In this document: positions 9,601 through 50,222 of the stretch, in pieces
Numbering within the stretch: the first letter of the stretch is position 1
Layout of the letters: the number at the start of each line of letters is the position of its first letter
Source: Lichenostomus cassidix
Lineage: Eukaryota > Chordata > Aves > Passeriformes > Meliphagidae
Length of the DNA: 64,000 nucleotides
Reading direction: 5' to 3'
NCBI GenBank assembly: GCA_008360975.2
Contig: VLJF02000033.1
Span: forward strand, 3,906,001 to 3,970,000
Notes under the pieces: generated by a model
Databases searched by the model: none
Told to the model about the DNA's origin: nothing
The model's input: only the letters and a program-made list of their open reading frames with translations
Program-made: the position numbers and the translations under genes

Positions 9601-12600
9601 GGGGACACCTGGGATATCTGGGATAGACCTGGATACACCTGGGGAACACCTGAGATACACCTGGGGACAGCTGGATACACCTGAGATACAGTTGGGGACA
9701 TCTGGGATACACCTGGATACACCTGGGGAACACTTGGAAACACCTGGGGAACACCTGGGATATCTGGGATAGACCTGGATACACCTGGATGTAGCTGGGG
9801 ACACCTAGGGAACACCTGGGGAAATCTGGAAACAGCTGGAACACACCTGGGGACACCTGGGATACACCTGGATACACCTGGGATATACCTGGGCAACATC
9901 TGGGGACACCTGGGGACATCTGGGATACACCTGGATACACCTGGATATAACTAGGGACACCTGGGGAACATCTGGATACACCTGGGATAGACCTGAGATA
10001 TATCTGGGGACACCTGGGATACACCTGGGGAACACCTGGGAGGTGCCACACCCACACCTGGCCACACCCACACCTGGCCACGCCCCTGCCCCACCCTCAC
10101 CTGGCCAAGGACACTTTCACTCTCCACTCCTCCAACTTCCAGCTTGAGCTGTTCTGCATTTCCAGGTGAATCCCAACCACACCCATGGTCACACCCTCAC
10201 CTGGAGCTCACCTGAGCTTCACCTGTACTCACCTGGCCAGGGAAACTCTCATCCTCCACCCTCCGGAGAACTTCCGCGTTGCTCTGTTCTGCATTTCCGG
10301 CGTGAATCCCAAACCTGCCAGGATCCTCCTGGCTTTGGCTTCGGCTGCTGCTGCGCCGATGGCGCGGAGCTCCTCGTACACCTGCGCAGGTGAGGGGGCA
10401 GGTGTGCCCAGGTGTGCCCCAGGTGTGCCCAGGTGTGCCCCAGGTGTGCCCCAGGTGTGCCCAGGTGTGCCAAGGTGTATCTCAGGTGTGTCAAGGTGTA
10501 TCTCAGGTGTCTCAGGTGTGTCAAGGTGTATCTCAGGTGTGTCCCCAGGTGTATCCCAGGTGTCCCCAAGTGTATCCCAGGTGTGCCCCAGGTGTGCCCA
10601 GATGTATCCCAGGTATCCCCAAGAGTATCCAGGTATATCCCCAGTGTGCCCAGGTGTATCCCAGGTGTATCCCAGGTAGGTCTCTCAGGTGTGCCCAGGT
10701 TTGCTCAGGTGTGCCCAGGTGTATCCCAGGTGTGCCCAGGTGTATCCCAGGTGCCCAGCTGTATCCCAGGTGTGTCCAGGTGTATTTTAGTGCCCCCCAG
10801 GTGTATCCCAGTCCCTCCAGATGTGTTTTACTTCCCCCCATGTGTATCCCAGGTGTGCCCAGGTGTCCCCCAGGTGTGCCCAGCTACCTTCTCCAGCTGT
10901 TCAGCAGCTGCATCATCCCCGCCCTCGATCAGCCCCTGCAGCCGTCGCTCCTCATCCAGCAGCCGCAGGCGTTTGGTGTCGGCTTTGAGCACGGCCTGGA
11001 CGGCAGGTGTGTCATCGGCCACCACCTCTGGGGACAGGTAAGGCACAGGTGAGTCACAGGTGTGTCATTGATAACCCCCAGGTGTGTCACAGGTAACCCC
11101 TAGGTGTGGTACAGGTAGCTTTGAGCACGGCCTGGACGGCAGGTGTGTCATCAGCCACCACCTCTGGGGACAGGTAAGGGACAGGTGAGACAGGTAAATA
11201 CACGGGTGAGTCATGGGTAACCCCTAGGTGTGTCACAGGTAGCTCTGAACAGCAGGTGTGTCATCAGCTGCCACCTCTGTGTACAGGTAAAACAAGTAAA
11301 TACACAGATGTGTTACAGGTGTGTCATTGATAACCCCCAGGTGTGTCACAGGTGTATCTCAGATGCCATCCAGGTGTGCCCAAGTGTGTTCAAGTCTATC
11401 TCAGGTGTGCCTAGGTGTGTCCCAGGTGTCTCCAGGTGTATCTCAAGTGCCCCAAGGTATGTTCAGGTATATCTCAGGTTCCCCCAGGTGTGCCGAGGCG
11501 CACCAAGGTGTGTTCAGGTGTATCCCAGGTGTCCCCAGGTGTATCCCAGGTGTCCCCAGGTGTGTCCAAGTGTGCCCAGGTGCATCCCAGGTGCCATTCA
11601 GGTGTGCCCAGGTGTATCTCAAATGCCCCCAGGTGTATCTCAGGTGTATCCCAGGTGTATCCCAGGTGCCCCCAGGTGTGTTCAGGTGTATCCCACGTGT
11701 ATCTCAAATGTCTCCAGGTGTGTTCAGGTCTATCTCAGGTGTGTTCAGGTGTATCTCAGGTGTCCCAGGTGAGCTCACCTTGCTCACACAGCAGCACATC
11801 AATATTGGGTGGGATGCTCAGCGCTCTGTTCGCGATGTGCTTCAGCAGCGTCGTCTTCCCTTTCCTGCCCAAAAAACCCAGAATTTACCCCAAAATTAAC
11901 CCCAAACTCCAGAGCTCCCAACCCCCGGGAATGCCAGGAATTGCAGGAATCCCAAAATTCCAGGATTTGGCCCCAGCAATCCCAAAAAGCTGCGATTTGG
12001 ACCCAGAATGGAATCCCAGGAACCTCAAAATTCCAGGATTTGGCCCCAGAAATCCCAAAATTTGGGGATTTGGCCCCAGAAGTCCTAAAACTGGGGGATT
12101 TGACCCCAGAAGGGAATCCTGAGAACCCCGAAACATTGGGATTTGGCCCCAGAAATCCCAAAATTTGGTGATTTTGCCCTAGAAATCCCAAAATTTGGGG
12201 GATTTGACCCCAGAATGGAATCCCGGGAATCCCAGAATATTGGGATTTGGCCCCAGAAATCCCAAAACTGGGAGATTTTGCCCCAAAACTGCTCACCCGT
12301 TGGGCCCCACGAGGCCATAGCGCCGCCCAGCCACGATGTAGAGATCGGCGTTGACGTAGAGCTCCTTCCCATGAGCAGAAATGCTGAATTTTTCCAGCTG
12401 AAAAAGAGGGAAAAACGGGAAAAATGGGGTTTTTTTGGGGTCCCAAAGCAGATTTTGGGATTCCTGAAGCAGATTTGGGTTCCCAAAGCACATACTGGGG
12501 TTCTTAAAGGGGATTTTGAGGCTCCTGAAGCAGATTTTGGGATTCCCAAAGCAAATTTTGGGATTCCTGAAGTGGACTTGGAAGTTCTCAAAGCAAATTT

Positions 12601-18836: not shown

Positions 18837-21800
18837 ATGCCCCGCAAGCTGCCGTTCAGCGCCAAGCGGAAAAAGCAGCAGCTCCGGGATCGGCGGGAGC
18901 GGAAACGGGGCGGTGAGGGGAGGGCGGTGAGGGAGGGGAACCCTCGGGATGTGGGGAGAGAGATCCCCGGGAATGAGGGCGGGAAACCCTGGGAATGGGG
19001 ATAGGGATGGAAGGGGCTGGGAGTCCCGGGAAGGAGGGCTGGTAGTCCCGGAATTGGGGGAGATAAACCCCCGGGAATGAGGGCTGGGAACCCTCGGGAT
19101 ATAGAGAGAGAAATCCCCGGGAATGGGAATAGGAACTCACCGGGATTTGGGGATAAGGATGGCAGAGAAGAATCCCTGAAAAAAGGGAGAAAAAGCCCTC
19201 CCGGGATGGAGACGGAGATCCCCGGGATGGTGACAGGGACCCTCAGGATGCCACCCGCAGGATGGTGACAGGGAAATCCCGGGATAGTGACAGGGAAATC
19301 CCGGGACAGAATCCTCTGGAAGTTTCCAGAACCCCCTAATTCCATCCCTCGCTGGCCGCAGATGCCCCGGCAGGACCTGCCCAGGGTCCCGGCAGCCGCA
19401 GCGGGAGCCGCGAGAGAGGCGGCGATGGTCCTCCTGGAGACCCCCCGGCTGAGCCTGCCGCGCCTCCCCGGCGCCACGACCCCGGCAGGTACCGAGGGGC
19501 AGCGGGAGATGTGGGGAGGGGTCGGGGTTTGGGGGGAATTAATCGGGAATTAGGGAAAACGCTTGGGTTTTGGCTGGAGTTTGAAATGGGGGAAAGCCCG
19601 GACTGGATTTATGCTGGAATTGGAAATGGAGGAAAGCCCGGACTGGATTTCCGCTGGAATTTAAAATGGGGAAAGCCTAAACTGGATTTGGGCTGGAATT
19701 GGAAGTGGAGGAAAGCCTGGACTGGATTTCAGCTGGAATTGGAAGTAGAGGAAAGCCCGGACTAGATTTCCGCTGGAATTTAAAATGGGGAAAGCCTGGA
19801 CTGGCTTTCAGCTGGAATTGGAAGAAAGCACGGATTGGATTTGGGCTGGAATTGGAAGTGGAGGAAAGCCTGGACTGGATTTAGGCGGGAATTGGATTGG
19901 GGAAAAGCCTGGACTGGATTTTCATTGAAATCTGGAAGGGAATAAAAATCCAGAGTGGATTTTGTCTGGAATCCAAGATGAGGAACGAAAACCTGGACTG
20001 GAATCTGGATTGAGAAAAGCTGGACTCAATCAAACCTGGGATCTGAAATGAGAGAACCTGGACTGGATTTTATCTGGAATCTAAAATGAGGGAAAACCCG
20101 GCCTGGATTTTACCCTAAATCCAGACTGGAAGGAAAACCTGGTCTGGATTTCAGTTGGAATCGAGACCAAGGGCAAACCCAGCCTGGATTTCTGCTGGAA
20201 TTCAGACCAAGGGAAAACCTGGTCTGGATTTCACCTATAATCCAGGCTGGAAGGAAAATCCAGCCTGGATTTCACCCAAAATTCTGACTGGAAGGAAAAC
20301 CTGGCCTGGATTTCACCCAAAATCCAGCCTGGAAGGAAAACCCGCCCTGGATTCCAGCCACACCCAGGGGTCTCCAGGCCCTGCAGGGTGTCCAGCGGCA
20401 GGTTGGTGACCCCAGTGTCCCTCCAGGTTCCGGCTGCAGCTGGGAGGACCTCGGGCTGAGGCTCTGGAGAGGAGCAAGAGAAGAGCCCAGGAGGAGCTGC
20501 TGGAGCTTCTGCCGGACAGTGCCTTGGAGCTCGAGCCAGACAGTGTCTATGGGCCTGGTGAGGGGGGAGTGACCACTGGGAGGGGCAAAATGGCCACTGG
20601 GAGGGGTGGAGTGACCACTTGGAGGGGTTCATTGGCTACTGGGAGGGGTTAATTGACTACTGGGAGGAGTTAGTTGACCACTTGGAGGAATTAACTGACT
20701 GCTGGGAGCAGCTAATTGGCTATGGGGAGGAGCTAATTGACCACTGGGAGGAGTTAGTTGGCTACTGGGAGGAGTTAATTGATTGCAGAGAAGAGTTGAT
20801 TAATTACTGAGAGGAGTTAATTGGCTTTTGGGAGGCGTAATTCATTAGTGGGAGGAGTTAATTGACTATTGAGCAGAGCTAATTGACCACAGGGTGGAAT
20901 TAATTGTCCCAGGAAAGGATAAAGTTACCACTGGAAGGACTCAAGTGGCCCCTGAGAGGGACAAACCCCCCTGAGGGACCCCAAACCCCCCCGAGGGTGG
21001 CCCTGTGACCCCGAGTGACCCCTTGGATGTCCCCAGGGCTGGACTTTCCCCGCCGCCCCCCCTGGAGTTTCGGGATGAACCCCGAGGAGCTGCGGGTGAA
21101 GGAGGAAGCAGCGTTTGGGGACTTCCTGAGGGCTTTGGGACACCGAGGGGACAAGGGGGACACCAGTGGGGACACTAATGGGGACCTGGCGCCTTTCGAG
21201 CACAACCTGGAGGTGAGAGGGGATGGGGTGGTTGGGGGTGGTTTGGGGACGTTGGGGACATCAGGGGGATTGGGGGCATTGGGGACATTAATGGGGACAT
21301 TGAGGATATTGAGGGTATTGGGGACATTGGGGACATTTGGGGGATATTGGAAATATTTTGGACATTGGGGACACTAAGGGTGTTGGGGACATTGGGGGCA
21401 TTGGAGATATTGGAGACATTTGGGACATTTGGGGACATTAGGGACACCTTGGGGACTGTGAGGAGGTGGCACGAGGCTCACAGGCCACCCCAGGGGCTCT
21501 CAGGCACACAGAGGTGACCCTGCTGTCCCCAAATTGTCCCCAGACGTGGCGCCAGCTGTGGCGAGTGCTGGAGATGTCTGACGTCGTGCTGCTGATCGCC
21601 GACGCTCGGCACCCGGTAAGGGGGGCTGGGGGTCACCTGGGGGTCACTTGGGGGTCACCTGGGGGTCCTGAATCCCCCCAGGGCCACATTGACCTCTCCT
21701 CTGTCACCTGGGGGTCACTTGAGGGTCACCTGAGGGTCACCTGGGCGTCCTGAAATCCCCTCAGGGCCACATCGACCTCTCCTCTGTCACCTGAGGATCT

Positions 21801-24800
21801 CCTGGGGGTCCTGAACCCTCCTCGGTCATCTGGGAGTCCCTAGATGTCCAAAGCCACACTGGCCCCTTGTGTCACCCCAAGGGTGTCCAGGACCCTCCAG
21901 TGACCCCCTGTCCCCCTCAAACCTGTCCATATCAATGTCCCCAAGTGTCCAGGACCCCCCAGTGACCTCCCCCCAGGAGTGTCCAGGACCCCCCAGTGAC
22001 CCCTCAAACCCCCCCAGACACATCCATATCGGTGTCCCCAAACCCTCAATGACCCCCTGACCCCCCCAAACCTGTCCATGTCAATGTCCCCAAACCCCCA
22101 GGACCCCCCAGTGACCCCTGAAACCCCCCAAACACATCCATATTGGTGTCCCCAAACCCTCAATGACCCTCCTCACCCCCAAACACATCCACATCGATGT
22201 CCCCAAACCCCCAGGTCCCCCCTGACCCCGCTGTCCCCCCAGGCCCTGTCGGTGCCCCCCGCCCTGGCCGCCCACGTGACGCAGGAATTGGGGAAGGGTC
22301 TCATCCTCATCCTCAACAAGGTGGACCTGACGCCCCCTGCGGTGGCAGTGGCCTGGAGTCACCTGCTGAGGGGACGTTTCAGTCCTGCTCGGGTTGTCCC
22401 TTTCAGCACGGCGCCGCCCCAAAGCGGGACCCCCGCCCCGGGTAATTTGGGGGGTTTTTGAGAGATTTGGGGTGGAATTGAGGGGGTTTGGGGTGGGATT
22501 GAGGGGGTTTGGGGTGACCTTGAAGGGACTTTGGGGTCCTGGTGGGCTTTTGGGGTGACATCTGGGGGGTTTGGGGTGGCAGTGGGGGATTTTTAGTCTT
22601 ACATTGGGTGGTTTTTGGAGTTGACTTGTGGGGATTTTAGGATGACATTGGGAGATTTTTGGAATGACTTAGAGCTTTTGGGGTAACATTAGAGGGGCTT
22701 TTAGGGTGACATTGGAGGGTTTTTAGAGTGATATTGGGGGCATTTTTGGGGTCCTGACCCCCCCACATTGCCCCCCAGGGCTGCAGAAGAAGCAGAAGAA
22801 GATGGGGAGTCGCTGGGGTCGCGCTGTGGGACCTCGACTGTTGCTGGAGGCCTGTGAGGACATTGTGGGGGGCGCAGGTCAGTGGCGAGGGGTCTCTGGG
22901 GGTCACCTGAGGGTCACCTGGGGGTCTCAGAGGGGTTTGGGAGACCTGGGATCACCTAGGGTGGAATTGGGGTTGGGGTCACCCATCCAGGCTGTGCCTG
23001 GGGCAGACCCTGCTTAGCTTTGTAATGGTGGGGGTGACCCAAGGGGGGCTCTGGGGGTCTTGGGGGGGCAGATGAGTTGGGAGAGGTCCCTGGGGGTCAC
23101 CTGGGGTCACCTGGAGGTCACCTGGGGGTCTCAGGGGGTCACCTGGGGGTCTCAGAGGGGTCTGGGAGACATGGGATCACCTAAGGGGGGGAATTGGGGT
23201 TGGGGTCACCCATCCAGGCTGTACCCGGGGCAGACCCTGCTTAGCTTTGTAATGGGAAGGGTGACCCAAGGGGGTCCCTGGGGTGTCCCTGAGTGTCCCC
23301 TCAGTGTCCCCTGGGTGCTCAGGGGGTCCCTGGGTGTCACAAAGCCATCCGAGTGTCCCCCTGGTGTCCCCTGGTCACTCTGGGCGTCCTTGGGATGCCC
23401 TGGGGTTGTCCTTAAATATTCCCCAGGTGTCCCCATGTCCTCTGAGTGCCACAGGGGTGTCCCTGAGCATCCCCCAGGTGTCCTATGGATGTCCCTGAGT
23501 GTCCCCCAGGTGTCCCCTGGGTGTTGTGGGACTCCCTGGTCACCCTGGGAGTCCCTGGGGTGTCCTGGGCTTGTCCCCAAGTGTCACCCCAGTGTCCCCA
23601 TGTCCCCTGGGGTGCCCCAAAGCCACCCCTGAGTGTCCCAAGGGTGCCCCAAAGCCACCCCTGAGTGTCCCAAGGGTGTCCCAAAGCCACCTCTGAGTGT
23701 CCCTGGTGTCCCCAGTGGACCTGTCGAGCTGGCGGGCGCGGCTGGAGAGAGCAGAGCAGCGGCCGGAGGAGGATGAGGAGGAGGAGGAGGAAGGGGAGGA
23801 AGCCCCGGGAGGTGACAATGACAGTGACGAGGACAGGGATGGAGCAATGGCGCCTCGGCAGTGGGAGAGATATCGGCATGGCGTCCTCACCCTGGGATGT
23901 GTCGGTGAGGGGCGTGGCTGCGGGGGGGCGTGGTCAGGGTGGGTGGATTTATGTGGGTGTGATCAGAGTGGGTGGAGCTAAAGTGGGTGTGGTCATGGTG
24001 GAACTACAAGGGGTGTAGTCATTGTGGGTGGAGCTAAAATAGGTGTGGCCACTAACTGTATCCCAAGTGGGTGTGGCTCACTCTAGGTGTATCCCAGCTG
24101 GGCGTGGCTCACCCTGGGTGTGGCTCAGTGTGGGTGTGGTTTAGAGGGGTGTGGCTGGCTCTGGGTGTGTCCCAGGTGGGCGTGGCTCAATGTGGGTGTG
24201 GCTTTAGGTGGGCGTGGCTCAATGTGGGTGTGGTTTTAGGTGGGCGTGGCTCAGTGTGGGTGTGGTTTAGAGGGGCGTGGCTCACTCTAGGTGTATCCCA
24301 GCTGGGCGTGGCTCAGTGTGGGTGTGGTCTAGACGGGCGTGGCTCACTCTGGGTGTGTTCCAGCTGGGCGTGGCTCACCCTGGCCCCGCCCTGCCCCGCC
24401 CAGGTCTGCCCAACGCCGGCAAATCCTCGGTGCTGAACGCGCTGCTGGGGCGTAGCGCGGTGGGCGTGTCCCGAGCTCCCGGCCGCACTCGCTACTTCCA
24501 GACTCACTTCCTGACGCCCACCGTGAGGCTCTGCGACTGCCCAGGCCTGGTGTTCCCTTCCCGGGCGCCGCCCGAGCTGCAGGTGAGCTCACCTGGACAG
24601 GTGGGACCTAAAGCCGTCCAGGTGTGATCTAAATCCATCCAGGTGTGACCATAACTTACCCAGATACAACCAAAATCCAGCCAGGTGTGATCCCAAACCA
24701 TCCAGGTGTTACCCTGAACCATCCAGGTGTGACCTTGATCTGCCAGGTGTGACCCTAATCCATCCAGGTGTGATCTAAATCCAGCCAGGTGTGACCATAA

Positions 24801-27418
24801 GCTATCCAGACATGACCTAAATCCATCCAGGTGGGACCTAAATCCAGCCAGGTGTGACCATAAGCTATCTAGATAGGACCTAAATCCAGCCAGGTGTGAC
24901 CATAAGCTATCTAGATAGGACCTAAATCCAGCCAGGTGTGACCCAAACCCATCCAGGTGTAACCCTGACCAATCCAGATGTGACCTATGTGTATCAAATC
25001 CCTTTTTTTCCCCATTTTCCCCCATTTTTTCCTCATTTCCCCCATTTTTCCCCATTTTCACCCATTTTTACCCATTACCAGGTTTTGGCAGGACTGTACT
25101 AAATCTATTTTTCCCATTTTCCCCCATTTTTTCCCCATTTTCCCCATTCCCAGGTCCTGGCAGGGCTGTACCCAATCCCATTTTTTTCCCATTTTTCCCC
25201 ATTCCCAGGTCCTGGCAGAGGCATACCAAATCCCATTTTTTCCCCCATTTTCCCCCATTTTTTCCCCCAGGTCCTGGCAGCTGTGTGCCCAGTTTTATCT
25301 CTCTCCCAGGTGCTGGCAGGGCTGTACCAAATCCCATTTTTTTTCTCCATTTCCCCCCATTTTCCCCCATTTTTCCCCATTCCCTGGTCCTGGCAGGTGT
25401 GTAATCAGTCCCATTCCCAGGTCCTGGCAGGGGTGTACCCAGTTTTATCTCTCTCCCAGGTCCTGGTAGGGGTGTACCAAATCCCATTTTTTTTTTCTAT
25501 TTTCCCAGGTCCTGGCAGGGCTGTATCAAATCCCATTTTTTTTCCATTTCCCCCCATTTTTCCCCATTCCCAGGTCCTGGCAGGTGTGTAGCCAGTTTTA
25601 TCTCTCTCTCAGGTCCTGGCAGGGCTGTATCAAATCCCATTTTTTTCCCCATTTTCCCCCATTTTTTTTCCCATCTCCCCCCATTTTTCCCCATTCCCAG
25701 GTCCTGGCAGGTGTGTAATCAGTCCCATTCCCAGGTCCTGGCAGGGCTGTACCCAGTTTTCTCTCTCTCCCAGGTCCTGGCAGGTGTGTACCCAGTTTTC
25801 TCTCTCTCCCAGGTCCTGGCAGGTGTGTATCCCATCGCCCAGCTGCAGGATCCTTACTCAGCCGTGGGATTTCTTGGCTCTCGCCTGGATTTGCCAACCT
25901 TGCTGCAGCTCAGACCTCCCAGCGGCCCTGGCTGGACTGCCTGGGAGCTCTGTGAAGGTGGGAACTCGGGAATTTTGGGGGAATTTTTGGAGAATTTGGG
26001 AATTTTGGGGGAATTTGGAAATTTGGGAGAATTTGAGAACTGGGGGGAATTGAGGAATTCGGAGGGAATTTGGGAATTTTAGGGTAATTCGGGAATTCAG
26101 GGAGATCTGAGAAGTTCGGGGGAATTTGGGGAATTCAGGGAGAATTTAAGAAATCAGGGGGAATTGGGGAATTTGAGGAAGTTCAGGGGAAAGTCAGGAA
26201 TTTGGGAATTTGGGGATTCATGGGGGAATTGCGGGGGAAATTGGGAATTCAGGAATTCAGGGAAATCCGGGAATTCAGGGGAATTTGGGAATTCAGGGGG
26301 AAATTTGGGAATCCAGGGAAAATTCAGGAATTTCAGAATTCAGGGGGAATTTGGGAGGAAATTAGAACGCAAGGGGAAAACCAAGAAATCAGAAATTTGG
26401 GAAATCTGGGAATTTCACAGCAAATAGAGACATTTCCTCGAAACCACCCCAAAATTCCATGTTTTTTTGGGATTTCCACAGCCTGGGCGGAGAAAAGAGG
26501 TTACAAGACGGCGCGAGCAGCTCGGAATGATGTGGCCAGAGCTGCCAATGGCATCCTCAGGATGGCAGCTGAGGGGAGGCTGAGGCTCTGCATGACACCC
26601 CCGGGGTTCTCCCGGGAAAAAGGTACCCAAAATCCCCCAAAAAAACCCCAAAAAAATCACAAAAATTCTCTGCATGATCCCGAGAATTTCCAGAGCAAAT
26701 GGGTACCAAAAAACCCCCAAAATATCATGTAAAAATAATTTTAAAACCATTAAAAGCATCTGCATGACACACTCAGGCTTTTCCTAGCAAAAAGATATCC
26801 TGAAAACCCAAAAAAAATCATAAAATCTCTTTGCATGACACCATCAAAATTTTCACAGCAGGAAGGTATCCAAAATCAGCAAAAGAAAACCCAAAAAAAT
26901 TAAAATAACCCCAAAAAGCCCTAAAATCAACGTTTATGGGGGGTTTGGAGTTCATCTTTGGGGTCTGGGTTCATCCTGGGGGTGTTTTTTGGGGTCAGTA
27001 GACTTTTTTTTAGGCTCAGTAGAAGTTTTTTGGGATCAGGGGGTGTTTTTTGGGATCCTGGGGTGGTTTTTTTTGGGATCAGTGGAGATTTTTTTGGGGA
27101 TCAGTGGAAGTTTTTTGGGGCCAATGGTTGTTTTTTGGGTTCAAATCCCACCCAGGCTCTCCCAGCCCCACCCCTTTTCCCTGACCATGCCCCTTTTCAC
27201 TAACCCCGCCCCTTTCCCCTCCCCCAGAGCAGTGGGAGGAGCATCCGGACACCTCAGCCATGGCGGCCATGACGGGGGGAGGGGCAGCACCCCGAAATCC
27301 CCCTGGAGAAGCTTCCAGTTCCGAGGAGGAGGAGGAAGAGGAGGAGCCAAGCGAGGCCACGCCCCCTCCCAGCCCCGCCCACAACCCCTTCGCACTGCTG
27401 GGGGAGGATGAATGCTAA
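18837..27418 (+). CDS. GNL1: GNL1, circularly permuted GTPase (HSR1), complete in 12 exons
   Basis: GNL1 belongs to the YlqF/YawG family of circularly permuted GTPases, linked to nucleolar ribosome biogenesis and G1 progression. Exons: 18837-18912, 19362-19488, 20427-20557, 21037-21212, 21544-21615, 22243-22441, 22779-22877, 23716-23904, 24404-24582, 25813-25957, 26482-26622, 27228-27418. Phases agree and total 1725 nt (574 aa; human 607). The start MPRKLPFSAKRKKQQ matches the family and is basic. The permuted order is visible: G4 NKVD (~219) comes before G1 GLPNAGKS (~357) and G3 DCPG (~401). The C-terminus ends ALLGEDEC after an acidic run. Another acidic run sits in exon 8. AATAAA is at 27483-27488. 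Exon 10 is preceded by an array of copies of its own start. Confidence 0.97.
19560..20370. repeat. GNL1 intron 2 minisatellite, about 47 bp unit
   Basis: A unit of GGACTGGATTT(C/A), GCTGGAATT and GGAGGAAAGCC blocks repeats about 17 times; it reads open in several frames but has no gene. Confidence 0.88.
20575..20930. repeat. GNL1 intron 3 minisatellite, GGGAGGAGTTAATTGACTACT unit
   Basis: A unit of about 24 bp repeats about 14 times. Confidence 0.88.
21220..22235. repeat. GNL1 introns 4 and 5 minisatellites
   Basis: Intron 4 holds GGGGACATTGG-type units (21225-21450). Intron 5 holds GGGGGTCACCT units and two copies of a CAGGGCCACAT block (near 21680 and 21763), then a unit of about 60 bp with CCAGGACCCCCCAGTGACC and CATCCATAT (21880-22215). 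Confidence 0.8.
22868..23275. repeat. Duplication of about 200-220 bp including the GNL1 exon 7 donor edge
   Basis: The block with CACCCATCCAGGCTGT and CTGCTTAGCTTTGTAATGG occurs at 22978-23047 and again at 23200-23270. The start of the first copy includes the exon 7 end and donor (22868-22890); the second start, at about 23065, is a diverged version. Confidence 0.72.
23275..24395. repeat. GNL1 introns 7 and 8 minisatellites
   Basis: Intron 7 is made of GTGTCCCCTGG-type units up to exon 8. Intron 8 (23920-24390) is a GGGCGTGGCTCAGTGTGGGTG array. Confidence 0.85.
24590..24985. repeat. GNL1 intron 9 minisatellite, ATCCAGCCAGGTGTGACC unit
   Basis: A unit of 20-25 bp repeats about 16 times directly after the exon 9 donor. 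Confidence 0.85.
25080..25830 (+). repeat. Array of decoy copies of the GNL1 exon 10 start and acceptor
   Basis: The block (C)CAGGTCCTGGCAGGNNTGTA, which is the true exon 10 boundary (acceptor at 25811-25812), occurs about 14 more times upstream, at intervals of about 35-90 bp: near 25080, 25152, 25206, 25268, 25308, 25385, 25420, 25458, 25506, 25571, 25610, 25700, 25733 and 25772. Between copies are C/T-rich tracts (TTTTTCCCCATTTT or TTTTATCTCTCTCC) that act as good polypyrimidine tracts. Each copy also contains CAG|GTGTGT-like donor sequence 10 nt after the acceptor. Confidence 0.93.
25960..26440. repeat. GNL1 intron 10 repeat, GGGAATTTGGGAATTCAGG unit
   Basis: G/A-rich units of about 20 bp repeat about 22 times. 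Confidence 0.85.
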
Positions 27419-32844: not shown

Positions 32845-35556
32845 ATGTCCCCCTCAGCGCCACCATCCCGCGGTCCCCTGGCCCGGCTGGCCGAAGCCAC
32901 CCAGTGTCCCTCGTGCGGGGTGGCCCTGCAGGACCCTGTGCTGCTGCCCTGCGACCACAGCTGCTGTCGCCGCTGCCTGCTGTCCCCTCCCCTCGGCGAC
33001 ACGGCCGGGACCCCCGCGTGTCCCCGCTGTCGCCGTCCTTGTCCCCTCGGCCGGCTGCGCACGGCGGTGGCGCTGGCGGTGGAGGCGAGGATCGTGCGGA
33101 GGCTGGCGGGGGACAGAGCTGGGGACAAGGAGGGGGACATTGGGGACAGCGGAGGGGACGCGGCGGGGACGGCGACACGGCCGGGACAGCGCAGAGTGCG
33201 GAGGTGCAGGTGAGAGGGGGAATTTTGGGGGGATTTTGGGGATTTGGGGACACGGAGGGGACATGGGAGGGACCGCAGCGCGGCTGGGAAAGCGCAGAGT
33301 GCGGCGGTGCAGGGGAGAAAACAGAAGATTTGGGATTTTGGGGGAGATTTGGGGGATTTGGGGACAGGGAGGGGACACCGCAGAATGTGGAGGTGCAGGT
33401 GAGAGGGACAGGGGATTTGGGATTTTGGGATTTGGGGACATGGAGGGGACATGGGAGGGACCGGAACGCGGCTGGGACAGCGCAGAGTGCGGCGGTGCAG
33501 GGGAGAGGGGGAAATTTTGGGGGAGATTTGGGGGATTTGGGGACAGGGGGAGGACAGAGGGGACAGTGCAGAGTGAGGAGGTGCAGGTGAGAGGGACGGG
33601 ATTTGGGGTTTTGGGGGAGATTTGGGGGATTTGTGAGAGATTTGGGGATTTGGGGACATGAGAGGGACAGAGGGGACAACGGACAGCGAGGAGGTGCAGG
33701 TGAGAGGAGGAGTTTTGGGGAATTTTGGGGGATTTGGAGGATTTTGGGACAGGGGAGGGGACAGTGGAGAGTGCGCTGGTGCAGGTGAGGGGGGAAAGGG
33801 GAATTTGGGGCAGATTTAGGGGATTTTGGGGACATGGAGGGACAGAGGGGACAAGGAAGAGTGAGGAGGTGCAGGTGAGAGGTATGGGATTTGGGAAATT
33901 TTGTGGGATTTTGGGGAGATTTGGGGATTTGGGGACATGAGGGGGATGGAGGGGACACCGCGGGGGACACCAGAGGGGAGAATTTGGGGAATTTTGGGGA
34001 TTTGGGGACACGGGAGGGACAGAGGGGACAGCGGAGGTGCAGGTGAGGGGAACGGGATTGGGGAGATTTGGGATTTTGGAGGGAAATTTGGGGGAATTGG
34101 GGGATTTAGGGACATGGGGAGGATGGAGAGGATTTGGGGGAGATTTGGGGGAAATTTGGGGGATTTAAGGAAAATTGGGGTCCTGGGAGAGTTTGGGTTG
34201 AATTCGGAGAATTTGGGGACATTGAGGAGGACAAAATTTGTAGGATTTTAGATCTGGGGTGACTCGGGGGGACATTGGGGACATCAAAATCCCCAAAATT
34301 CCACAGAGAAATTAAGGATTGGAACAAAAAATCCAAAAAAATCCCATTTTTGGACAGAATTTTGGGGGAAATTTTGGGATTTCCTTACCCCTCACGTGCC
34401 GAGGCCACCTGAGCCACCCCGGGCTGTCACCGCGCCCCAAACGTGACCTCGATGTCCCCAGCCCTGGGCAGCCCCGCCCCCTCCCCGCCCGGCCAGGTGA
34501 CATTTTTGGGAGGTGACAAAGTTTTGTTTTGGTGCCACCTGGGCTCCTCCTCCTCCCCAACCCCGAATTTTGGGTTTTTTTTAATCCTTCCCTCCAAATT
34601 TTTGGGGTTTTTTATCTCTCACCCCAAATTTTGGGAACTTTTTGTGTCCCAACCCCCAAAATTTTGTGATTTTTTTTATGTCCCACCCCAAATTTTTAAG
34701 TTTTTTAATATCCCACCCCAAAATTTTGAGGATTTTTTAACATCCCCTGCAAATTTTGGGATTTTTTCTGTCCCACCCCTCAAATTTTGGGGTTTCTTTG
34801 TATCTTCCTCCAAAATTTGGGGTTTTTTTTCCCATCCCACCCTCCAAATTTTGAAGTATTTTTGTGTCCCACTCCCAAATTTTTGCTTTTCTTTTCATGT
34901 CCCACCCTCCAAATTTCAGGATTTTTCATGTCCCACCCCCAAATTTTGGGGTTTTTCTTGTATTCCCACCCCAAATTTTGGGATTTTTTCATGTTCCCAC
35001 CCCTAAAATTTGGGGGTTTTTGGGTTCCTCCCCCAAATTTTGTTATTTTTTCATATTCCCACCCCCAAATTTGGGATTTTTTTGGTATTCCCACTTCAAA
35101 TTCTGTTATTTTTTCATATTCCCCCCCAAATTTTGTTATTTTTTTCGTGTCCCCATCCCTAAAATTTATTATTTTTTCATGTTCCCACCCTAAAATTTGT
35201 TATTTTTTTGTATTCCCACCCCAAATTTTGTTATTTTTTCATATTCCATCCCCAAATTTTGTTACTTTTTCATGTTCCTACCGTCCAAATTTTGTTCTAT
35301 TTTCATGTCCTCACCCCAAATTTTGCTTTTTCCTGTGTCCCACCCCAAATTTTGTTATTTTTTCATGTTTTTACCCTAAATTCTGTTATTTTTTCGTATT
35401 CCCACCCCAAATTTTGGGGTTTTTTTGTGTCCCACCCCAAATTTTCCTGACTCCTCCCCTTTCTCTCCCCACAGCCTCGGAGCCAAACTGCGAGCAGACG
35501 GCGCCCCTCCCCCACCCCCGCGGGACCCCCAAAAACCCTCCCCTCCCCCCAAATAA
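32845..35556 (+). CDS. RNF39: RNF39-like RING finger gene without a B30.2 domain
   Basis: The first exon (32845-33209) starts MSPSAPPSRGPLARLAEATQ and encodes a C3HC4-type RING: CPSC, then CDHSCCRRC, then CPRC, followed by a helix-like stretch with LRTAVALAVEARI. Spacing and this post-RING motif match RNF39, which sits beside PPP1R11 in human. The exon ends in phase 2 at a GTGCAG|GTGAGA donor. The only later acceptor that keeps a short tidy frame is at 35471-35474 (exon 35475-35556), giving a 148-residue protein with a Pro-rich tail and TAA at 35554-35556. Human RNF39 continues with PRY/SPRY; none is visible here. The second exon is inferred from phase only, so the gene end is uncertain. The expected activity is E3 ubiquitin ligase. 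Confidence 0.68.
33185..34060 (+). repeat. Tandem copies of the RNF39-like exon 1 end and donor
   Basis: The block GCAGAGTG(C/A)GGAGGTGCAG followed by GTGAGAG is the real exon end at 33192-33215. It recurs near 33293, 33381, 33481, 33568, 33683, 33767, 33857 and 34033, with a period of about 90-100 bp and GGATTTGGGGACA-type filler. Most copies keep the GTGAG donor; two read GGGGAGA instead. Confidence 0.88.
34540..35460. repeat. RNF39-like intron minisatellite, CCCACCCCAAATTTTGTTATT unit
   Basis: A T/C-rich unit of about 35 bp repeats about 26 times and makes a long pyrimidine tract before the acceptor at 35474. Confidence 0.88.
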
Positions 35557-48884: not shown

Positions 48885-48887
48885 AGG

Positions 48888-50222
48888 ATGCTGAAGAAGA
48901 CCAGCCTGGCTCTGTGGGGAGCCGCGCTCTTCCTCGCCTGGAACGGCCTCCTCCTCCTCTTCCTCTGGAGCCGCCCGGCCGTCCTCCCCAATTCCCAAAA
49001 CCCCCAAAATCCCGACAATTCCCACCTCCTGCCCGCCCAGCTGCTCCGCCTGGCTCAGGACGCCGAATCCGAGCTGCGCCTGCAGCGCGAGCTCCTCCTG
49101 CAGATCCAGAAGTTCAGCCAGCTCCACCAACTCCAGCACCACAAAAAAACCCCCAAACCGCCCCAAGCGGCCGCGCCGAGCGAGGCGGAGTTCCCGGTGA
49201 TCCCGGTGCTGGTGCTGGCGTGCGACAGGAGCTCCGTGCGCCGCTGCCTGGATAAACTGCTGCGCTACCGGCCCAGCGCCCGCCGCTTCCCGGTCATCGT
49301 TTCGCAGGACTGCGGCCACGCCGAGACCGCCAGGGTCATCGCCTCCTACGGCCAGTCGGTGTCCCACATCCGCCAGCCGGACCTCAGCGACATCCCGGTG
49401 CCGCCGGAGCACCGCAAATTCCAGGGTTATTACCGCATTTCCCGGCATTACCGCTGGGCGCTCGGCCAGGTGTTTCGTACTTTCCGCTACCGCGCCGCCA
49501 TCGTGGTGGAGGACGACCTGGAGGTGGCTCCGGATTTTTTCGAGTATTTCCAGGCGGTTTTCCCGCTGCTGCAGAGGGATCCCAGTTTGTGGTGTATTTC
49601 GGCGTGGAATGACAACGGCAAGGAAGCCATGGTGGATCCGGGGAGGGCGGAGCTGCTTTACCGCACGGATTTTTTCCCGGGCTTGGGTTGGTTGCTCCTG
49701 GCGGAACTTTGGGATGAGTTGGAACCCAAATGGCCGGCGGCTTTTTGGGACGATTGGATGAGGCAGCCGGAGCAACGCCGCGGTCGTTCCTGCGTGCGGC
49801 CGGAGGTGTCCAGGACGATGACCTTCGGCCGCAAGGGCGTCAGCCACGGGCAGTTCTTCGATCAATACCTGAAGTTCATCAAACTCAACGACCGCTTCGT
49901 GCCTTTCACCCAACTGGACCTTTCTTACCTCAAAAAGGAGGAATACGAAAAATTCTTCCTGCAGCAGGTTTATTCAGCCCCCGAAATCCAACTGGAGGAG
50001 CTGCAGAAGGATCCTGGCAGGGATTCTGGGGCGGTGAGGCTCCAATATCGGGGCAGGGATTCCTTCAAGGCGATGGCCAAAGCCTTGGGGTTGATGGATG
50101 ACCTCAAATCCGGCGTTCCCCGCGCCGGCTACCGCGGCATCGTCAGCTTCGTGTGCCGCGGCCGCCGCGTCTTCCTGGCTCCTCCCTCGGACTGGACGGG
50201 CTACGACCCCTCCTGGAGCTGA
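48888..50222 (+). CDS. MGAT1: MGAT1, N-acetylglucosaminyltransferase I, single coding exon
   Basis: GnT-I transfers GlcNAc from UDP-GlcNAc to the alpha-1,3 arm of Man5GlcNAc2 in the medial Golgi, the first step to hybrid and complex N-glycans. The 444-residue protein (human 445) is a type II Golgi protein: short cytosolic MLKK, a hydrophobic anchor at about 6-27, a Gln/His-rich stem to about 100, then the GT-A catalytic domain. Family motifs include ACDRSSVRRCLDKLL, VSQDCGH, the metal-binding EDD at 208-210 in VVEDDLEVAPDFFEYF, SAWNDNGKE, YRTDFFPGLGWLL, FWDDWMR and TFGRKGVSHGQFFDQ. It ends GYDPSWS. The gene maps with TRIM7, TRIM41 and RACK1 in human 5q35. The start is preceded by a start-stop uORF. 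Confidence 0.98.
   Translation: MLKKTSLALWGAALFLAWNGLLLLFLWSRPAVLPNSQNPQNPDNSHLLPAQLLRLAQDAESELRLQRELLLQIQKFSQLHQLQHHKKTPKPPQAAAPSEAEFPVIPVLVLACDRSSVRRCLDKLLRYRPSARRFPVIVSQDCGHAETARVIASYGQSVSHIRQPDLSDIPVPPEHRKFQGYYRISRHYRWALGQVFRTFRYRAAIVVEDDLEVAPDFFEYFQAVFPLLQRDPSLWCISAWNDNGKEAMVDPGRAELLYRTDFFPGLGWLLLAELWDELEPKWPAAFWDDWMRQPEQRRGRSCVRPEVSRTMTFGRKGVSHGQFFDQYLKFIKLNDRFVPFTQLDLSYLKKEEYEKFFLQQVYSAPEIQLEELQKDPGRDSGAVRLQYRGRDSFKAMAKALGLMDDLKSGVPRAGYRGIVSFVCRGRRVFLAPPSDWTGYDPSWS

Follow-up and report, generated by a model that had tools for sequence, protein, structure and literature searches.

We examined the GNL1 gene of the passerine bird Lichenostomus cassidix in a 64,000-nucleotide (nt) stretch of DNA (GCA_008360975.2, contig VLJF02000033.1, positions 3,906,001-3,970,000 of the forward strand), which we refer to as the window and in whose numbering all coordinates are given. 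The gene lies intact in the window with GT/AG at all of its exon borders, and its protein shares 80-82% identity with the seven best-scoring records, all of which are passerine GNL1. Its longest intron, intron 9, carries a tandem array in which the acceptor edge of exon 10, splice site included, is copied repeatedly ahead of the exon itself (Table 1), so that potential 3' splice sites stand in a row before the true one.

Counting as a copy any CAG|GTCCTGGCAGGTGTGTA with four or fewer mismatches in 20 nt, we found 14 copies, together occupying 25079-25790 and beginning at 25079, 25151, 25206, 25268, 25307, 25384, 25418, 25457, 25506, 25571, 25610, 25698, 25732 and 25771, with the true edge at 25810. 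At this threshold none was present in 20 Markov sequences as long as the window, ten of them of order 1 and ten of order 3, which confirms the original prediction, an earlier note on this DNA, that about 14 copies of its acceptor edge precede exon 10. When all 22 GNL1 splice edges were compared as 20-mers with all 11 introns, allowing up to five mismatches, the intron 9 acceptor had its 14 copies in its own intron and none in the other ten, whilst 20 of the other 21 edges had no copy in their own intron and none was copied in bulk; the scattered matches were to the intron 10 donor (one in its own intron, two elsewhere) and the intron 3 acceptor (one elsewhere). Internal exon 20-mers matched neighbouring introns in 53 of 1841 comparisons, mostly through one simple stretch of exon 4. 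The copies take in the pyrimidine tract and the AG and end about 17-19 nt inside exon 10, the AG being kept in 13 of the 14. Spacing within the array is irregular, 34-88 nt, with three types of spacer, and one stretch of it recurs almost unchanged further downstream (Table 1), therefore several units were copied together. Divergence of the copies from the exon edge rises with distance from exon 10 (2-8 mismatches in 21 exonic nt, rho 0.63, one-sided permutation p 0.008). When three of the units were folded as DNA, the z values were 0.71, -1.01 and 0.74, leaving hairpin formation unsupported.

Table 1. Features of the GNL1 locus and of its neighbourhood in the window (aa, amino acids).
Feature	Positions	Strand	Remarks
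GNL1 gene	18837-27418	+	12 coding exons; joined coding sequence 1725 nt, open, 574 aa
GNL1 exons 1-6	18837-18912, 19362-19488, 20427-20557, 21037-21212, 21544-21615, 22243-22441	+	
GNL1 exons 7-12	22779-22877, 23716-23904, 24404-24582, 25813-25957, 26482-26622, 27228-27418	+	
GNL1 intron 9	24583-25812	+	1230 nt, longest of 11 GNL1 introns
GNL1 exon 10	25813-25957	+	source exon of the copies
Acceptor-edge array	25079-25812	+	exon 10 edge copied 14 times in direct orientation; pyrimidine-rich spacers
TGTGTATC at left border of the array	24988-24995	+	AAATCCC comes next, here and in two array units
Copy without AG	25387-25403 (copy 25384)	+	CCCTG in its place; carries donor-like CAGGTGTGT
Multi-unit duplication	25364-25767	+	90-nt stretch from 25364 recurs at a lag of 314 nt, 97% identity
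Best-scoring acceptor copy of intron 9	25509-25525	+	scores 16.6, true site 14.0
Nearest decoy unit	25774-25812	+	39-nt unit that keeps the frame and adds 13 aa (VLAGVYPVFSLSQ); acceptor scores 14.0, like the true site
Second nearest decoy unit	25735-25773	+	39 nt; acceptor use in frame, +26 aa (+78 nt); weak score, 6.6
5' array of intron 9	24601-24945	+	12 decoy donors (CAGGTGTGA or CAGGTGGGA) at intervals of 21 or 42 nt, in one case 20
RING exon donor-edge copies	33210-34044	+	8 copies of the edge of exon 32845-33209, in the following intron

Acceptor, donor and branch-point scores were obtained with simple matrices built from approximate frequencies and so serve for ranking only. Of the 66 AGs of intron 9 that were scored, the true exon 10 acceptor ranked second; array members, with the true site counted among them, took the first 12 ranks, and the acceptors at 25271 and 25774 equalled the true site. 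The original prediction had the splicing machinery facing near-identical 3' splice sites: scored copy by copy, this stands for 9 of the 14, which reach at least 12.4 and so fall no more than 2 bits short of the true acceptor or exceed it, and fails for the copy at 25384, where the AG is lost. Competition among these acceptors is supported by the scoring and by a cuckoo-finch isoform model, described below, that translates such an array. No strong branch-point candidate was found for the true site, the best being the A in GTGTAC, 23 nt upstream and within the exon-derived repeat. A donor-like CAG|GTGTGT had been claimed for every copy; CAGGTGTGT is present only in four of the 14 (25384, 25571, 25698 and 25771). 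Three upstream copies have both AG and donor, but the microexon running from copy acceptor to GTGTGT donor would be 10 nt long and out of frame and is unlikely; among longer cryptic exons, 5 of 38 acceptor-donor pairs would keep the full-length frame open. In recursive splicing an AG is followed immediately by a strong donor, and we rejected this for the array as CAG|GTCCTG scores 0.5 as a donor against 3.9-10.9 for the true GNL1 donors.

Use of the decoys would have unequal consequences for the protein. Among the 13 decoys that bear AG, 11 lead to a premature stop whilst the two nearest to exon 10 are in frame and open, so that the expectation that decoys would usually damage GNL1 holds for the majority, yet the damage is not uniform. 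Exon 10 would measure 184 nt with the nearest decoy and 876 nt with the farthest, therefore exon definition favours the last copies. The array would present several 3' splice sites that could compete with one another, of which the last should be preferred for lying close to the exon 10 donor; the nearest decoy would add its 13 aa in frame and those farther away would mostly give truncated messages. The 5' array of the same intron, which looks intronic in origin, supplies 12 of the 16 donor-like sites of intron 9 that score at least 7 (each of the remaining introns of the gene contains 0-2), and its first two decoy donors would lengthen exon 9 in frame. The 8-mer CAGGTGTG is a unit of this array and of arrays around 10399-11771, with 49 plus-strand occurrences in positions 1-38500 against 0.7 expected from a first-order model.

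Related arrays are visible in the GNL1 models of other passerines. We scored 8000 candidates in a search for GNL1 relatives and worked from the best 120 of 896, which are predicted proteins from records. Isoform X1 of the cuckoo-finch Anomalospiza imberbis (P0008, 681 aa) contains a 121-aa insert exactly at the exon 9/10 junction, in which the same repeat is translated in each of the three frames (VLAG, RSWQG and GPGR). Searched against the window with tblastn (low-complexity filters off), the insert had its best match in the array at 3.6e-15, whilst the best match outside reached 2.7e-6 and the reversed insert 2e-4; there were 112 matches, 29 in the array and 83 outside. In cuckoo-finch isoform X3 (P0033) exon 9 is joined to exon 11 out of frame, skipping exon 10. 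A region search returned one further protein with a piece of array, a scrambled model from Lonchura striata (P0121) with one copy, SWQGCTPFSLLSQ, before exon 10. The remaining passerine models shown with the junction read LQ|VLAG directly, except that P0053 (Onychostruthus) has unrelated sequence there. In the 116 matched rows of 121 fetched, the residue after VLAG is Ile in 73, Val in 41, Ala in one and Leu in one; the single Ala belongs to the cuckoo-finch decoy copy, and the single Leu, from Coccothraustes (P0037), is the residue that many array copies encode. Because they are back-translated from proteins, these copies can be assigned to types only provisionally: those of Anomalospiza and Lonchura would fit the GGGCTG type, and AYLNPV in Anomalospiza would fit the AATCCC spacer. 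Taken together, the models suggest that the array is shared by passerines, though arrays may also have grown in parallel, because the core of the repeat recurs genome-wide.

The closest known system is exon stuttering, named by Hron et al. 2026, who describe it in 115 chicken genes and 236 introns, 190 of these on dot chromosomes (PMC12954441). As described there, more than 90% of the sources lie at exon borders, splice sites are copied, with potential alternative transcripts, and expansions are also mentioned for other birds and gerbils (PMC12954441). Among the literature matches listed, this was the only paper with the terms 'sequence stuttering' or 'exon stuttering', and its main text is without the terms GNL1, passerine, MHC (major histocompatibility complex) and RNA-seq. 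The GNL1 array resembles these cases in that an exon edge and its splice site are copied in direct tandem within the neighbouring intron, the source lies at the exon border, the coding exons are intact and the introns are repeat-dense. It differs in that the published screen was made in chicken and the GNL1 case is passerine, and in that the paper argues for independent recent expansion in each species whereas the models of GNL1 relatives suggest an array shared by passerines (PMC12954441). The copied part of the exon is also shorter in GNL1 than the chicken screen detects, its cut-off, as distinct from the definition, being a blastn-short exon match of at least 20 nt and at least 42.1 bits (PMC12954441). 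With a copied source that lies within 1 base of the exon border and includes the splice site, the GNL1 array fits the definition of exon stuttering, though it falls under that cut-off.

A second case lies nearby, in a RING-finger gene at 32845, where copies of an exon's donor edge follow in its intron (Table 1). One exon match in these copies exceeds the published screen cut-off (32 nt, 48.1 bits), and a donor scoring at least 10.8 is kept in six of the eight copies. Copied in its own intron, the RING donor edge GGAGGTGCAG|GTGAG is the donor-side mirror of GNL1. With donor copies in the one gene and acceptor copies in the other, both kinds of splice edge are therefore affected within 10 kb.

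Other systems are alike in part. NAGNAG and other tandem acceptors are nearby competing 3' splice sites, a few nt apart, that alter protein length; we rejected this class for GNL1, where the AGs are not 3 nt apart but belong to 13 acceptor edges repeated every 34-88 nt. The minisatellite of the human gene 6-16/IFI6 reportedly has a shorter repeat unit than GNL1. It contains multiple splice donors (Turri et al. 1995, via PMC4526556), and like the GNL1 array it is a tandem repeat that gives multiple usable splice-site copies at an exon border, although on the donor side and in a mammal. Tandem-repeat introns are shared with the GC-rich, hard-to-sequence genes of birds, as described without exon-edge copying (PMC6792250). 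The older acceptor-side precedent is provided by the mirages of amphioxus, tandem duplications of intron-exon boundaries in globin (BflGb6, BflGb9) and Adh3 genes, which are unstable in length, with different lengths between haplotypes, and have AG/GT signals in many of their units (PMC3087553). Mirages and the GNL1 array are both minisatellite-like tandem duplications of a boundary, and in BflGb6 the duplicated part runs from the 3' end of an intron into the beginning of exon 2, an arrangement seen also in GNL1; the mirages, however, are found in a cephalochordate, have units of 150-160 bp (BflGb6 and BflGb9) or 10-72 bp (Adh3) and are tied to intron gain with splicing seemingly undisturbed (PMC3087553). 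The cuckoo-finch isoform models point the opposite way on splicing. Because the name is used for cephalochordates, we regard this as a likeness of kind and not of shared descent.

We infer with good confidence that the intron 9 array is exon stuttering, the acceptor edge of exon 10 having been repeatedly tandem-duplicated into intron 9 by a process that is most likely mutational, not selected. Repeated local duplication would have carried the pyrimidine tract, the AG and about 19 coding nt of exon 10 into the intron; the array was probably founded by a duplication between TGTGTATC in intron 9 and its direct copy in exon 10, and later events would have taken several units together. On the plus strand of the 64 kb, TGTGTATC occurs at three sites, 10841, 24988 at the array border and 25824 in exon 10, and the continuation TGTATCAAATCCC in two array units is identical to the intron at the border (24990). 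A 44-nt query spanning the exon 10 edge reaches 77.8 bits.

The core of the copies, CAGGTCCTGGCAGG, is not unique to GNL1 in the genome. Its 15-mer CAGGTCCTGGCAGGG occurs 117 times (62 forward, 55 reverse; the reversed-string control gave 0), and arrays of the core lie outside GNL1 on contigs C4, C357, C29, C31 (two), C68 and C461. Minisatellites of the same genome that are otherwise unrelated (loci L020, L022 and L033-L036) have CAGGTCCTGGCAGGG as their core. The small contigs C357 (L021) and C461 (L036) repeat the array loci of C4 and C31 with a different arrangement of copies; they may be alternative haplotypes, which would mean length variation.

Several observations weigh against growth from the exon edge. 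No GNL1 exon match of at least 20 nt was found, which leaves the array below the screen cut-off, and the best exon 10 match is 17 nt (34.2 bits). The TGTGTATC border match is suggestive only, because Markov models give a probability of 1.6-15%, according to the model, that an 8-nt match of some kind arises no more than 40 nt from the border, and because a different 8-mer of exon 10, CAGGTGTG, has 10 occurrences in the 5' half of intron 9. Core arrays elsewhere lack an adjoining matching exon, for example in PA2G4, where the C31 array at 2.127 Mb adjoins an exon (PDB match 4.9e-20) whose start is without the core. Conversely, the locus L039 has CAG|GTCCTGGCAGGG after a pyrimidine tract, resembling an exon acceptor (VLAGNEAIRG), and no array, so that the core alone is insufficient. 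As for decoy use, amphioxus data on Adh3 and reverse-transcription PCR of globin genes suggest undisturbed splicing despite the copies, which counts against assuming it in GNL1 (PMC3087553).

The dispersed core is a serious rival to an exon origin. If a generic avian minisatellite with the core CAGGTCCTGGCAGGG had settled in intron 9, the likeness to exon 10 would be coincidence, or gene conversion would have rewritten exon 10, and the genome-wide abundance of the 15-mer, its arrays on several contigs and the 19-mer CAGGTCCTGGCAGGGCTGT, found 10 times in the genome and every time within arrays, would be explained. The original prediction had staked growth from the exon edge on the copies not being nearer to other sequence than to exon 10, and over 16 nt the outcome is mixed: 6 of the 14 copies lie nearer to the core as found in unrelated arrays (four matching it perfectly), 5 lie nearer to exon 10 (four perfectly) and 3 are ties. 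The array-type Leu of one finch model, against Val or Ile in 114 of the 116 matched rows, is a further point for the minisatellite. What follows the core speaks for the exon, however: an exon-like continuation, [GT][GCT]TGTA, comes after all 9 core copies of GNL1, of which 8 lie in the intron and one is the true edge, and after none of the 76 that were compared from seven other places in the genome. The pattern was picked after GNL1 had been seen, GNL1 scores 7, 8 or 9 of 9 by strictness, and the loci compared are not all independent (L020 is kin to L021, and L033 to L036). Over the 15 nt that lead up to the core, pyrimidines make up on average 0.86 of the sequence in GNL1 against 0.23-0.67 at the other places. 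Spacers of the C4 array and GNL1 are not similar past the core, the remainders resembling each other no more than shuffled sequences do (p 0.885; 0.54 with columns permuted), on which grounds we also rejected transposition of whole units between the two. Moreover, VLAG or a close variant stands in nearly all vertebrate GNL1 rows shown, therefore these residues of exon 10 are not array-derived. We thus consider a settled minisatellite quite improbable, and the idea that the repeat grew from the exon edge is supported both by the continuation and by the TGTGTATC common to array border and exon 10.

Two further explanations concern the reality and the purpose of the array. Tandem arrays are difficult to assemble, but most copies here differ from each other and from the exon edge, in mismatches and in spacer type, and GNL1 models of other species have related arrays, which makes an assembly artefact scarcely credible. 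The array could also be a regulatory cassette under selection, in which ordered acceptors, some in frame, yield GNL1 isoforms; the cuckoo-finch models that translate the array or skip exon 10, the two in-frame decoys and the 12 decoy donors of the same intron would suit such a function. Yet most of the AG decoys truncate the protein, the other passerine models shown, P0053 excepted, pass directly from exon 9 to exon 10, the irregular spacing and the decay with distance fit drift, and amphioxus mirages seem not to disturb splicing (PMC3087553), so that selection for isoforms appears very unlikely. A wider proposal, unlikely as it stands though less so than a settled minisatellite, would join the dispersed core to exon stuttering: CAGGT-rich near-consensus cores such as CAGGTCCTGGCAGG would expand genome-wide, exons with such a coding edge would stutter, and the GNL1 array would be an old passerine array whose decoys are now spliced in some species.

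The surroundings of the gene are in part repeat-dense, on a contig of 4.41 Mb. The minus-strand neighbour is an ABC-family gene (ABC_tran match), and we take the minus-strand genes on either side to be ABCF1 and RPP21, which with GNL1 are presumably grouped in the human MHC as well. In a protein tree of 27 chosen rows (the window and 26 of the 121 fetched proteins), window GNL1 groups with passerines and falls outside the clade of other sampled passerines, the jay Aphelocoma excepted; the fork that leaves out the window and Aphelocoma has a support of 94/90, below the level starred by the tree program. At 48885-50219, adjoining a repeat-rich part, a single open frame of 445 aa has a full-length GNT-I match (5.6e-186).

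New in the GNL1 case are the passerine relatives with related arrays, the isoform models that translate the array and the dispersed core motif. It extends a newly named instability of bird genomes to passerine GNL1, with isoform models that predict use of the copied splice sites, and suggests that lineages can retain such an array as they diverge. Were expansion driven by the core, this would help to explain why most stuttered sources sit at exon borders, which is testable in any high-quality bird genome, and the likeness to amphioxus mirages raises the question of whether one mutational process acts in both. For the bird itself, the copied splice sites could lead cells to the wrong choice of splice site.

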